64,000 nucleotides of DNA, from NCBI RefSeq assembly GCF_002077945.1, contig NZ_LVYD01000046.1:186001-250000 (forward strand), written 5' to 3'. Positions 27,319-32,330 of this stretch are shown here, in pieces. Origin of the DNA: Niastella vici (lineage in GTDB: Bacteria; Bacteroidota; Bacteroidia; Chitinophagales; Chitinophagaceae). The position numbers were made by a program, and so were the translations under genes. The stretch's first letter is position 1. Each line of letters starts with the position of its first letter. Below the pieces are notes generated by a model that was not told the DNA's origin, ran no database searches, and worked only from the letters and a program-made list of their open reading frames with translations.

Positions 27319-27506
27319 AAATAATTTGCGTGCATCCAAACAATGCCGTGTTAAATAACCCGTTGATTATAAACGTAATTTCATTGCCTGCCTAATCAGG
27401 CACTTAGGGTTTTCTAATCCGTTGAAATGGAGGGGGAGAGTGGCCTTTTCTTTTTGAAATGGGGATGAATGCTTATTTTTATCCATCAACAGCTATCGGA
27501 TATTTT

Positions 27507-28457
27507 ATGAAGAAGTACCTTTTAAGTTTGGGTTTGGTTCTACTATTATTTGCATGCAAGGACAAAACGAAAACATTACAGGCGGGTGAAATAGAGACCG
27601 CAGCAGATTTCGTGGCATTTTATCCTGAAGTTAATTTGCCCTATATGATAGCTGATACCATGTTATTAAGAAAGCCAAATGATTCAATGGCTATAGGGCT
27701 GAATGTAGTTTCCAAATTTATACCTGACAGTGTATGGCGTAAGGACTTTGGCAAAAATGCCATGCCTAAAATTTATGCGCTGGGACGAACAGCCGAAAAA
27801 GAAAAAGAAAGTTATTTGTTTACCCAGGTGGCATCGGGTGGCAAACGGGTGGTTTACCTCGCCTGTTTTAGTCATGATAATAAATTCTTAAAGGCAATGC
27901 CATTGGTGCGAACCGGGTTCGATCACTATACCTCCGCATATGGCCTGCTCGATTCAAAATTTCAGATCACCACCTACCACGAAACCAAAAAAGCCGGCGC
28001 AGATGCGGTCTTTAAAAGGAACATCTATTTTTATGACCGGAACGGGGATAATTTTACCCTTATAGTAACAGAGCCAAATGAAGAGATCATTCAGGATGTT
28101 GTGAACCCCATTGATACCATGAGGGCCAATCATAAATTTTCAGGTGATTATGTAGAAAATGACCGGAATTTCGTTTCAATACGCGATGGAAAAAATGCTT
28201 CTGAAATAGTGTTCTTTGTTCATTTTGAAAAGAATGGTGGCAAGTGCATCGGCGAATTAAAAGGGGCGGCACGTTTTATTTCACCAACGGTGGCACAATT
28301 TGTTAAAAGTGATAACCCCTGCTCGCTTGAGTTTGTATTTGCGGGCAATAAAGTCACTATGAGGGAAAAAGGCGGTTGTGGTTCGTATCGTGATATCCAG
28401 TGCTTTTTCAACGGAAGTTACTGGAAGAAGAAAACAGCGAAGGGTAAAAAGAAGTAA
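27507..28457 (+). CDS. Lipoprotein of unknown function
   Basis: A 316-residue protein with a lipoprotein signal (MKKYLLSLGLVLLLFAC, lipobox LFAC), so probably a periplasm-facing membrane anchor. I do not recognise a domain. The body is mixed alpha/beta, and the last 90 residues contain four cysteines (KCIGEL, NPCSLEF, KGGCGSYRDIQC), which could make two disulfides. The segment NFVSIRDGKNASEIVFFVHFE looks like the core of a small beta-sandwich. The start at 27507 is set by the signal peptide; the longer frame from 27459 adds an unnatural extension. No operon partner. Confidence 0.75.
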   Translation: MKKYLLSLGLVLLLFACKDKTKTLQAGEIETAADFVAFYPEVNLPYMIADTMLLRKPNDSMAIGLNVVSKFIPDSVWRKDFGKNAMPKIYALGRTAEKEKESYLFTQVASGGKRVVYLACFSHDNKFLKAMPLVRTGFDHYTSAYGLLDSKFQITTYHETKKAGADAVFKRNIYFYDRNGDNFTLIVTEPNEEIIQDVVNPIDTMRANHKFSGDYVENDRNFVSIRDGKNASEIVFFVHFEKNGGKCIGELKGAARFISPTVAQFVKSDNPCSLEFVFAGNKVTMREKGGCGSYRDIQCFFNGSYWKKKTAKGKKK

Positions 28458-28637
28458 GTAGAAGCGCCTGCTCCCATGGAATAGGGGGGAACACGTTAAT
28501 ATGTTAAATAATAACCGGTATACTAACATTCATTAGTATAATACTATCTATATTCGCCCCGTTTTTGTAGCGTTTAATCAACCTCAGGGCACGATCAAAA
28601 AGATCGATACCTGTATGTATAAAAAAGATCAGTGTAT

Positions 28638-30293
28638 ATGAGTTTTACCAATTTTACAGTTCCTTACCCGATAGAAGGAAAATACAGCAAGCGGGTAGCT
28701 TATTTCTCAATGGAGTTTGCCGTTCACCAGCCATTGAAGATCTACAGCGGCGGCCTTGGTTTTTTATCAGGTTCGCATTTACGCAGTGCCTATGAGTTAC
28801 AGCAAAACATGGTGGGCATTGGTATTTTGTGGAAGTACGGATATTATGATCAGGCCCGTAACCAGGACCATACCCTGCAGGTAACCTGGCTCGAAAAGTA
28901 TTATCATTTCCTCGAAGATACAGGCATTAAATTCCAGATCACCATTCACGATCACCTGGTATGGGTGAAAGCCTATTACCTGAACCCCGAAACATTCAAG
29001 ACGGCGCCCTTGTTCTTACTGAGCACTGACCTGCCCGAGAACGATCATGTTTCGCAAACCATTACGCACCGTTTATATGATGCCAATGTAGCTACCAAGG
29101 TTGCCCAGTTTATTTTACTGGGTGTGGGTGGCGCCAAGCTCATGGATGAAATTGGATTTAATCCCGAGCTGTATCATTTGAATGAAGCGCATGGCGTATC
29201 CTCAGTTTTTTACCTGTATAAAAAATTCGGCAACAAGGTTGAGGAAGTGAAGAAGCGGCTGGTGTTCACCACACACACGCCTGAAGAAGCGGGAAATGAA
29301 AAGCATGATATTCACCTGTGCCATAAAATGAGTTATTTCTGTGGCTTAAGCATCGATGAAGTGCGAAAGCTCACGGGTATTCAGGATGACCAGTTCAATC
29401 ACTCGCTGGTAGCCTTGCGTTTTGCCCACCTCGCAAACGGCGTATCGAAATTACATGGCGAAGTATCGAGACATATGTGGGAAAGGTATGAGAATATTTG
29501 TCCCATCATTAGCATCACCAATGCGCAGAACTGGCGTTACTGGGCCGATAAACAATTGTACCGCGCGGCAGAAGAAGGCAATGACAGCTGGTGGGATGAC
29601 CGCAAGAAATACCTCAAGCGCCGGGCGTTTGATATAGTAGCCGATCAAACCGGTAAATTGTTCAACCCGAATGTATTTACCATTGTATGGGCACGCCGCT
29701 TTGCCGGTTACAAACGCGCCGAGCTGCTGACACGCGATAAAGCCCGTTTTGAAAAATTATTGAGCAGTACCAAATATCCCGTGCAGATCATTTGGGCTGG
29801 TAAGCCATACCCAATGGATTACCCTGCTATTAATGATTTCAACAGCCTGGTGCATATCAGCAAGGGGTATAAGAACGTGGCAGTGCTTGTCGGTTATGAA
29901 TTGGGGTTATCAAAGCGCATGAAACAGGCGGCCGATGTGTGGTTGAATAACCCGCGTGTTCCGCGTGAAGCCTCCGGTACCAGCGGTATGACCGCTGCCA
30001 TGAATGGCGCTATTAACTTCTCTACCCTTGATGGTTGGATACCCGAGTTCATTGACCAGGGACATAATGGTTTTGTGGTGCCCAAGCCCGATTACGCCAA
30101 AATGAGCGTACAGGAGCAGGACCAATACGACCTCGATAAAATATATGAGCTGTTGGAACATGATATTCTGCCTATGTATTATGAACGCTATGATACCTGG
30201 CGCCAGATTGCCAAAAACGGGATGCGCGATGTGCGTTTTCAGTTCGACTCAGGGCGCATGGCAAATGAGTATTATGAGTTGCTTTATAAGTAG
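28638..30293 (+). CDS. GT35-like alpha-glucan phosphorylase homologue lacking the PLP lysine
   Basis: A 551-residue member of the short alpha-glucan phosphorylase group. Family segments are in order: VAYFSMEFAVHQ and IYSGGLGFLSGSHL at the N-terminus, HLNEAHG, VFTTHTPEEAGNEKHD, VWARRFAGYKRAELL, QIIWAGKPYPMD and the LNNPRVPREASGTSGM stretch. In known phosphorylases the latter continues with the PLP-binding Lys; here that position is Thr452 (codon ACC at 29991). If PLP is not bound, ordinary glycogen phosphorolysis is unlikely. A transferase or regulatory glucan-binding role, or a different way of phosphate activation, is possible. The ATG at 28638 is chosen over the GTG at 28632. Confidence 0.85.
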   Translation: MSFTNFTVPYPIEGKYSKRVAYFSMEFAVHQPLKIYSGGLGFLSGSHLRSAYELQQNMVGIGILWKYGYYDQARNQDHTLQVTWLEKYYHFLEDTGIKFQITIHDHLVWVKAYYLNPETFKTAPLFLLSTDLPENDHVSQTITHRLYDANVATKVAQFILLGVGGAKLMDEIGFNPELYHLNEAHGVSSVFYLYKKFGNKVEEVKKRLVFTTHTPEEAGNEKHDIHLCHKMSYFCGLSIDEVRKLTGIQDDQFNHSLVALRFAHLANGVSKLHGEVSRHMWERYENICPIISITNAQNWRYWADKQLYRAAEEGNDSWWDDRKKYLKRRAFDIVADQTGKLFNPNVFTIVWARRFAGYKRAELLTRDKARFEKLLSSTKYPVQIIWAGKPYPMDYPAINDFNSLVHISKGYKNVAVLVGYELGLSKRMKQAADVWLNNPRVPREASGTSGMTAAMNGAINFSTLDGWIPEFIDQGHNGFVVPKPDYAKMSVQEQDQYDLDKIYELLEHDILPMYYERYDTWRQIAKNGMRDVRFQFDSGRMANEYYELLYK

Positions 30294-30412: not shown

Positions 30413-30437
30413 TTAATGAATGTTGAATAGTATTATC

Positions 30438-30458
30438 CTACTTCCTACTTCTTACTTC
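30438..30458. repeat. Inverted heptads (complement of GARGTAR)
   Basis: CTACTTC, CTACTTC, TTACTTC are the reverse complement of the array at 30322-30356; the two could pair in a transcript around the terminator. Confidence 0.65.
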
Positions 30459-30521
30459 TTTTTTTCGGGCGCTTATGTAATAATTAATTCTGGTGCATCT
30501 ATCCTGAAATCACTCACCAAA

Positions 30522-32330
30522 ATGAATTATATGAAGCGAATGTTTATCTTTTTAATATCCCTGTCGGTAGTGGTACAGGTATGGGCCGGCGATGATAAGA
30601 ATATTGTATCATCCGTATTAAGATCGGCCATGGTGTACAGGGCCGGCGCCGAATTAACGCATACAACCAAAGCCACCCTGAACCAGGGAAATAATGAACT
30701 GATAATAGATAATATCAGTAACATCATTGATAAAAACAGCCTGCAAATAGGCAGCAATGGTAATGTGACCATTCTTTCGGTTGAGTTCTCAACCAATTAT
30801 CTCCGCAACGAACAAAAACTACCCATTGTAAAGAAACTGGAAGATTCGCTGGAATCGGTAAATGATGAAATTACCAAAGTGCAGGTAGTGTTAAAGACCG
30901 ATCAGGAATTATTAGACCTGTTAAAAGCGAACAAAGAGATCCGCGGCGATCAAACCGGGGTGAGTGTGGTTGAGCTTACTAAAATGATGGAGTACTATAA
31001 AACAAAAACGCTGGAATTGCAAAATGAGCTCAGCCGCTACAGGGAAAAAGAATCGAAGCTGTTTGAGACCATAGCCAAAATAAATAAACAGATAAAAGAG
31101 GAAGAACAGAAGAATAATAAAACGATCGGCAGGTTGCTGTTACAATTGTACTGCCCTATGGCCGGCCAGTATGATTTTACGATATCGTATGTAACGCCTT
31201 CAGCCGGCTGGAACCCAACCTATGATCTGCGGGTGGAAAATATCAACAAACCTGTTTCCCTGGCTTATAAAGCCAAACTGGTGCAAAGCACCGGCATCGA
31301 CTGGCAACATGTGAAGCTGGCCCTGAGTACCTCGGTTCCTGCCCAGCATAATAATGCGCCGGAAATAAATAGCTGGTTCCTTGGGTATTATTCCCCTAAT
31401 AACCCTTTGTTGGCGCTTGAGGGCCGGGTAGCAGGATTATCTGTTTCATCAGCTGCGCCTGCTGCTGAATTACGAATTCGGGGAACCGGTAGTTATAAGT
31501 CATATGATTCTAATGAAAAAAAAGAACAGAACGAACCCATGTATGTTGTAAATGGTTCACCCATGAGCAAGGATGAGTTTTCACGAATTGATCCCAGGGC
31601 CATCAAAAGCATGGAAGTATTAAAAGATGCATCGGCGAGTGCTGTTTACGGTGCCCGGGCAGCCGGTGGGGTAGTGATGGTAACGCTGAAGGAAATGGGC
31701 GATTATGTATCGGTGAAAGATAACCAGCTGAATGTGGTATTCGATATTGACCTGCCCTATGATGTGCCTTCGAATGGAAAAGAACAGAATGTGAACCTGA
31801 AAGATTTCAAGATACCGGCCCTGTACAAATATTACAGCGTTCCCAAAATAGATAAGGATGCTTATTTGTTGGGGGAGGTTGTTGACTGGGAAGCCTTGAA
31901 CCTGTTACCGGGCGAAGCCAATATTATTTTTGAAGGCACCTATATTGGTAAAACCACCATCAATGCCGAATCGGTACAGGATACGCTGAACCTTACGCTG
32001 GGCAGAGATAAGCGGGTGGTGGTAACCAGGGAAAAGCTGGCTGATTTCAGCAGTGTAAAATTCCTGGGCAGCAACAAAAAGCAAACCTTTACGTATGAAA
32101 TAACCATACGGAACAATAAGAAAGAAGCGGTGCAAATGGAGTTGCGTGATCAATATCCATTGTCAACGAATAAAGATATTGAAGTGGAGCTGTTGCAATC
32201 TGATGGGGCTTCAGTGAATAGTGAAACTGGTATTTTAACCTGGAAACCACAGCTGGCGCCGGGTGAAATAAAGAAGTTCCGCGTGAGCTACAGTGTGAAG
32301 TACCCGAAAGATAAGCTCATTAATTGGTAA
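30522..32330 (+). CDS. MuiA-family (DUF4140/DUF4139) secreted protein with an inserted TonB-plug-like segment
   Basis: About 602 residues with a signal peptide. Residues about 30-110 match DUF4140 (RSAMVYRAGAELTH), then comes a long coiled coil (about 110-215), then DUF4139 (SYVTPSAGWNPTYDLRV onward) to the C-terminus. Inside DUF4139, residues about 299-390 carry the signature of a SusC/RagA plug: LEGRVAGLSV, LRIRGTGS, EPMYVVNGSPM, IKSMEVLKDASASAVYGARA and GGVVMVTLK. No outer-membrane barrel follows, so it is not a receptor. ATGs at 30522, 30531 and 30540 are all possible; the upstream frame from 30420 runs through the heptad repeat. Function unknown; E. coli-type 'mucoidy inhibitor' is a family label only. 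Confidence 0.85.
   Translation: MNYMKRMFIFLISLSVVVQVWAGDDKNIVSSVLRSAMVYRAGAELTHTTKATLNQGNNELIIDNISNIIDKNSLQIGSNGNVTILSVEFSTNYLRNEQKLPIVKKLEDSLESVNDEITKVQVVLKTDQELLDLLKANKEIRGDQTGVSVVELTKMMEYYKTKTLELQNELSRYREKESKLFETIAKINKQIKEEEQKNNKTIGRLLLQLYCPMAGQYDFTISYVTPSAGWNPTYDLRVENINKPVSLAYKAKLVQSTGIDWQHVKLALSTSVPAQHNNAPEINSWFLGYYSPNNPLLALEGRVAGLSVSSAAPAAELRIRGTGSYKSYDSNEKKEQNEPMYVVNGSPMSKDEFSRIDPRAIKSMEVLKDASASAVYGARAAGGVVMVTLKEMGDYVSVKDNQLNVVFDIDLPYDVPSNGKEQNVNLKDFKIPALYKYYSVPKIDKDAYLLGEVVDWEALNLLPGEANIIFEGTYIGKTTINAESVQDTLNLTLGRDKRVVVTREKLADFSSVKFLGSNKKQTFTYEITIRNNKKEAVQMELRDQYPLSTNKDIEVELLQSDGASVNSETGILTWKPQLAPGEIKKFRVSYSVKYPKDKLINW

Follow-up and report, generated by a model that had tools for sequence, protein, structure and literature searches.

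The window, that is, the whole stretch of 64,000 nucleotides analysed here, encodes on its forward strand an alpha-glucan phosphorylase homologue of 551 aa that carries a threonine at the site of the PLP lysine of GT35 enzymes. Proteins without this lysine are called Lys-less below, and homologues that retain it, Lys-type. Residues of the window protein are numbered from the ATG at 28638, and a count from the alternative GTG at 28632 runs two higher. The features of the locus are the following:

27459..28457, + strand: lipoprotein-like ORF without a Pfam family, upstream of the Lys-less gene (ORF list, locus comparison)
28632, + strand: alternative in-frame GTG start of the Lys-less gene (ORF list)
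28638..30293, + strand: CDS of the Lys-less alpha-glucan phosphorylase homologue, 551 aa (ORF and TIGR02094 score)
28749..28760, + strand: Gly loop G38 G39 L40 G41, MalP G114-G117 (alignment, conservation)
29274..29276, + strand: His213, MalP H346, in 121/121 Lys-less proteins (alignment, conservation)
29520..29522, + strand: Asn295, MalP N450, in 121/121 Lys-less proteins (alignment, conservation)
29697..29717, + strand: R354-x-x-x-Y358-K359-R360, MalP R535 and Y539-K540-R541 (alignment, conservation)
29922..29924, + strand: Lys429 codon (AAA), lysine in 121/121 Lys-less and 0/46 Lys-type proteins
29967..29990, + strand: EASGTSGM motif, Glu444-Met451, MalP E638-M645 (sequence, alignment)
29991..29993, + strand: Thr452 codon (ACC), site of the PLP lysine, MalP K646 (alignment with MalP)

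The window protein scored 434.6 bits on the NCBIfam model TIGR02094, "alpha-glucan family phosphorylase" (cut-off 191.7), and 56.3 bits on the Pfam model PF00343 (cut-off 27), and is thus a member of both; on TIGR02095, the model of the GT5 glycogen synthase GlgA, it reached 28 bits, below the cut-off of 328.45, and falls outside that family. It is a short form when compared with the 797 aa of Escherichia coli MalP, and Lys-type short forms are of similar length (564 aa). Among solved chains, 9l6i, a glycogen phosphorylase of Segatella copri, is closest to it, and in this chain the lysine is retained (EASGTSGEKAEMNG).

The preliminary description had read the residue after the EASGTSGM motif as a replacement of the PLP lysine and the other family motifs as intact, and an alignment with E. 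coli MalP and GlgP, which it had proposed as a check, agreed with it on both points. In the local sequence EASGTSGM-T452-AAMNG, Thr452 falls on MalP K646, described as the PLP lysine (PMC11046441), and the catalytic residues align as well. The Gly loop (G38 G39 L40 G41), H213, N295, R354, Y358 K359 R360, and E444 A S G T448 are kept in all 121 Lys-less proteins; among these, K359 corresponds to MalP K540, for which coordination of the phosphate of PLP is described (PMC11046441). Since the PLP lysine is missing, we do not file the window protein as a PLP-dependent GT35 phosphorylase, though by sequence it lies inside TIGR02094 and GT35; it is a novel GT35 variant that may act as such a phosphorylase.

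The extent of the substitution was analysed in 167 distinct homologues, taken from the loci of a contig scan, a genome search, and plasmids, after removal of duplicates (18, plus earlier identical rows). The PLP lysine is absent from 121 of them (118 with Thr, 2 with Ser, and 1 with Ala) and retained in 46, including MalP and GlgP. Among the matches listed in the contig scan, all 80 related Chitinophagaceae-like loci showed Thr at this site. In a class sample of 395 genomes, the Lys-less form was present in 39 genomes (42 places) with at least 49% identity to the query used, the other homologues showing at most 44%, and residue 452 was read in 40 of these 42 places, with G557 and G633 left out. 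The 39 genomes span nine coded families, the named carriers being Chitinophagaceae, Pontibacter (Hymenobacteraceae), and Runella (Spirosomataceae), so that a substitution common to a Bacteroidota clade, as suggested beforehand together with a survey of the site across this phylum, is what these homologues revealed. The gene is not universal, as the genome search gave no match to it in G017, a genome from the same family as the window's organism.

A quick tree search was carried out on 71 of the 167 rows (47/121 Lys-less and 24/46 Lys-type), with columns 429 and 452 excluded. All 47 Lys-less rows were found on one side of a branch with an SH-aLRT of 98, their stem measuring 1.46 changes per column, in line with the earlier idea of a distinct enzyme group; long branches were flagged by the program at the root between MalP/GlgP and the rest, and no ancestral state is therefore claimed. 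Comparison of the window gene with three close relatives gave dN/dS values of ~0.02-0.04, and selection on it is strongly purifying, as in a maintained enzyme group. Chance or a sequencing error as the cause of Thr452 was ruled out by this conserved clade, given the number of homologues without the lysine, their single group in the tree, and the low dN/dS. No report of such a clade was found in a literature search that took in few subscription papers.

The genome of the window's organism also contains a second, more distant paralogue (L035:6910-8610, contig C44), likewise Lys-less, in which Ala takes the place of the lysine. Named by eye, its neighbours comprise, upstream on its own strand, a PAS histidine kinase and an ORF like small heat-shock proteins and, close by on the opposite strand, one ORF like PEP synthase and two like universal-stress proteins. 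Apart from this, genomes of family f87, including L144-L147, carry Lys-type homologues in open frames of ~1,330-1,370 aa, a size at which they are probably fused to a further domain.

The span 29930-30010, to which the preliminary description had assigned the substitution, contains the EASGTSGM motif but leaves out the codon of Lys429, the most notable of the residues that accompany the loss. At this position, the 46 Lys-type proteins show V (33), I (10), T (2), or Y (1), and never K, whereas the lysine is invariant in the Lys-less proteins, including those with Ser or Ala at 452. Each of the 167 sequences has lysine at exactly one of positions 429 and 452, without exception, which in terms of the alignment is a clean lysine swap between the two groups. 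However, eight columns separate Lys-less from Lys-type perfectly in the 167 proteins (S46, W65, Y70, F120, Q297, Y391, F401, and K429), and, as seven further columns are as diagnostic as Lys429, the swap may partly be the signature of one ancient event, which may account for all eight. Lys429 aligns on MalP I623, four residues (about one helical turn) past MalP A619, in a helix that we take to line the PLP pocket, and from this aligned position we would expect it to face the cofactor pocket. The predicted model has a mean pLDDT of 80.7, with stretches below 50 that include residues 28-42, 68-85, and 441-446 and thereby parts of the active site.

Regarding the gene neighbourhoods, 72 of the 80 related loci among the matches listed have a member of the lipoprotein family upstream of the Lys-less gene, in the same orientation and at a median distance of ~109 bp; none of the 23 other loci read has one. 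An operon of both genes is possible within the window's lineage only; the lipoprotein was dropped as a conserved operon partner, and its absence from the 23 other loci means that it gives no hint to function. On the other side of the phosphorylase homologue, positions 30420-32330 of the window encode a DUF4140/DUF4139 protein that contains, at residues 332-418, a match to the TonB-receptor Plug domain, which is an unusual insertion.

A Pfam-confirmed phosphoketolase was found near the Lys-less gene in 2 of the 23 other loci (L164 and L166) and in 0/80 Chitinophagaceae-like loci among the matches listed; the housekeeping copies, including that of the window, are thus without such a setting. The two arrangements are ackA-xfp-glgP(T)-USP in G261 and P-type ATPase-USP-xfp-BON-glgP(T) in G080; the names acetate kinase in L166, and P-type ATPase and BON protein in L164, were assigned by eye. 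Similar orders occur around Lys-type genes, whose lysine state was read from sequence, as glgP(K)-ackA-xfp in Methylophaga and P-type ATPase-xfp-glgP(K) in Criblamydia. In addition, the Lys-less locus of Pontibacter reads GAPDH II-DUF1622-glgP(T), and a Lys-type locus of Indioceanicola, with lysine state read in the same way, GAPDH II-CBS-glgP(K)-pgm. The three Lys-less loci of G261, G080, and Pontibacter thus resemble the surroundings of Lys-type genes from other phyla, and suggest a route from glucan through glucose 1-phosphate to central metabolism in these three cases, the window's locus not being among them.

The gene content of the genomes, too, favours a phosphorylase role. In none of the 26 Lys-less genomes checked was another PF00343 protein found, and 23 of the 26 have a dedicated glycogen synthase over the cut-off (GT5 GlgA in 13 and GT3 in 10 others), accompanied by GlgB over the cut-off in 17 and by GlgC in 11, with two more slightly under it. 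Within the sample of 395 genomes, the 39 with the Lys-less form and the 39 with other matches show zero overlap, a mutual exclusion with a hypergeometric value of 0.016 when 38 are used, the weak G439 row being omitted and kinship uncorrected. In three of the 26, which belong to a single genus (G076, G111, and G194), no match over the cut-off was obtained for a glycogen synthase or for GlgB, so the substrate there would not be their own glycogen, a point against a simple glycogen role. The Lys-less gene of these three is 68-71% identical to that of the window and in the tree falls between rows of Chitinophagaceae, and its horizontal transfer is possible.

We consider, at about even odds (a probability of roughly 0.5), that the window protein is an active enzyme in the role of an alpha-glucan phosphorylase, converting glucan and Pi into glucose 1-phosphate, in which the cofactor would have been re-anchored on Lys429 or replaced by it. 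The PLP lysine of glycogen phosphorylase is presumably mainly an anchor, and if the aldimine has this part, its loss need not end catalysis where the phosphate or its charge is held otherwise. The acid/base chemistry is attributed to the 5'-phosphate of PLP, which shuttles a proton (PMC6411801, PMC11046441). The canonical anchor would have been lost by a change of K to T, S, or A at 452, and Lys429 stands about one helical turn past the equivalent of MalP A619, where it would line the same pocket. From there, it could re-anchor PLP from a different side, or it could take the place of the cofactor, supplying charge or acid to the phosphate of the substrate, which R354 and K359 would hold. In broader terms, we regard this as probably a whole GT35 branch in which no PLP is bound to lysine at the canonical position, be it a PLP-free glucan phosphorylase with Lys429 replacing the cofactor, an NDP-using glucan enzyme like the supposed PLP-less ancestor, or a phosphorylase in which the Schiff-base lysine has moved to another helix.

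The main rival, which we hold to be unlikely, though clearly ahead of the others, is an enzyme that lost PLP and became, or stayed, dependent on nucleotide sugars, its pocket holding a nucleotide and glucose being moved between NDP-glucose and glucan in one direction or the other. In GT-B synthases, the nucleotide pocket overlaps the PLP site. A fold search with the predicted model ended in a tie, with Z 29.3 over 515 aligned positions for the phosphorylase of S. copri and Z 29.1 over 436 for the ADP-bound glycogen synthase of E. coli. A GY...S stretch of the window protein matches GlgA G354-Y355...S, Lys-type proteins having mostly N/D-Y...A, with G419 in 3/46 and S425 in 1/46 of them nonetheless. 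The glgA model matched the three Lys-less proteins scanned with 23-29 bits, and Lys-less frames of the genome search with up to 49.8 bits, and gave no match in five of the eight Lys-type proteins scanned, mostly long forms. However, the model also matches both Lys-type short forms scanned, with 41.2 and 28.8 bits, so the GlgA likeness tracks the short core and not the lost lysine, and as proof of a synthase it was dropped. An NDP-sugar-dependent proto-GT35 that later acquired PLP has been proposed in a review (PMC11046441), and this would suit such an enzyme; against it, nearly all the Lys-less genomes checked already have a glycogen synthase, and the few telling neighbourhoods appear catabolic.

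An ordinary phosphorylase that holds PLP non-covalently, with no special role for Thr452 and Lys429, seems to us more doubtful still. It would agree with the phosphate being the catalytic part of PLP (PMC6411801, PMC11046441) and with the retention of K359 together with the conserved motifs that surround this residue, but it leaves the distribution of Lys429 between the two groups unexplained. The loss of a residue regarded as essential could also mark a non-catalytic pseudoenzyme with a glucan-binding or regulatory task. The preliminary description had offered either no phosphorolysis of glucan or a different mode of action, such as that of a glucan transferase or a binding protein. The enzyme may indeed work differently, but a loss of phosphorolysis and a binding role were not supported: the catalytic Glu, His, Asn, Arg, and Lys are kept throughout the Lys-less set, the protein is the sole GT35 member of the genomes checked, and three loci resemble settings of Lys-type genes. 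On the first two grounds, a pseudoenzyme is very improbable.

Section 6.3 of PMC11046441 treats the origin of the PLP requirement in a GT-B enzyme as an open evolutionary question. A large natural Lys-less clade, in which the other catalytic residues are kept and every member examined has a second-site lysine, makes this question testable, and with it the proposed origin from an NDP-sugar-dependent proto-GT35. On the practical side, Pontibacter and Runella records apply the name "glgP: alpha-glucan family phosphorylase" automatically to proteins without the cofactor lysine of the family.

Compared with known systems, the Lys-less protein shares its fold and catalytic motifs with the Lys-type members of TIGR02094, such as S. 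copri 9l6i and the short forms encoded on plasmids of Microvirga and Indioceanicola, and its length with the short forms; the Lys-less clade differs from them in the absent PLP lysine, the new Lys429, and the eight diagnostic columns. E. coli MalP and GlgP (TIGR02093, GT35) align with it in the catalytic residues but are distant in sequence, MalP being longer (797 vs. 551 aa) and having K646 and I623 where the window protein has Thr452 and Lys429. GT5 GlgA has in common with it the GT-B fold and the GY...S stretch, whereas the TIGR02095 score of the window protein is far below the cut-off and a separate GlgA or GT3 synthase exists in 23/26 genomes. Finally, the retaining trehalose phosphorylase (GT4) is a GT-B phosphorylase without PLP, of another family and with another substrate, and would be a precedent for a PLP-free mechanism.
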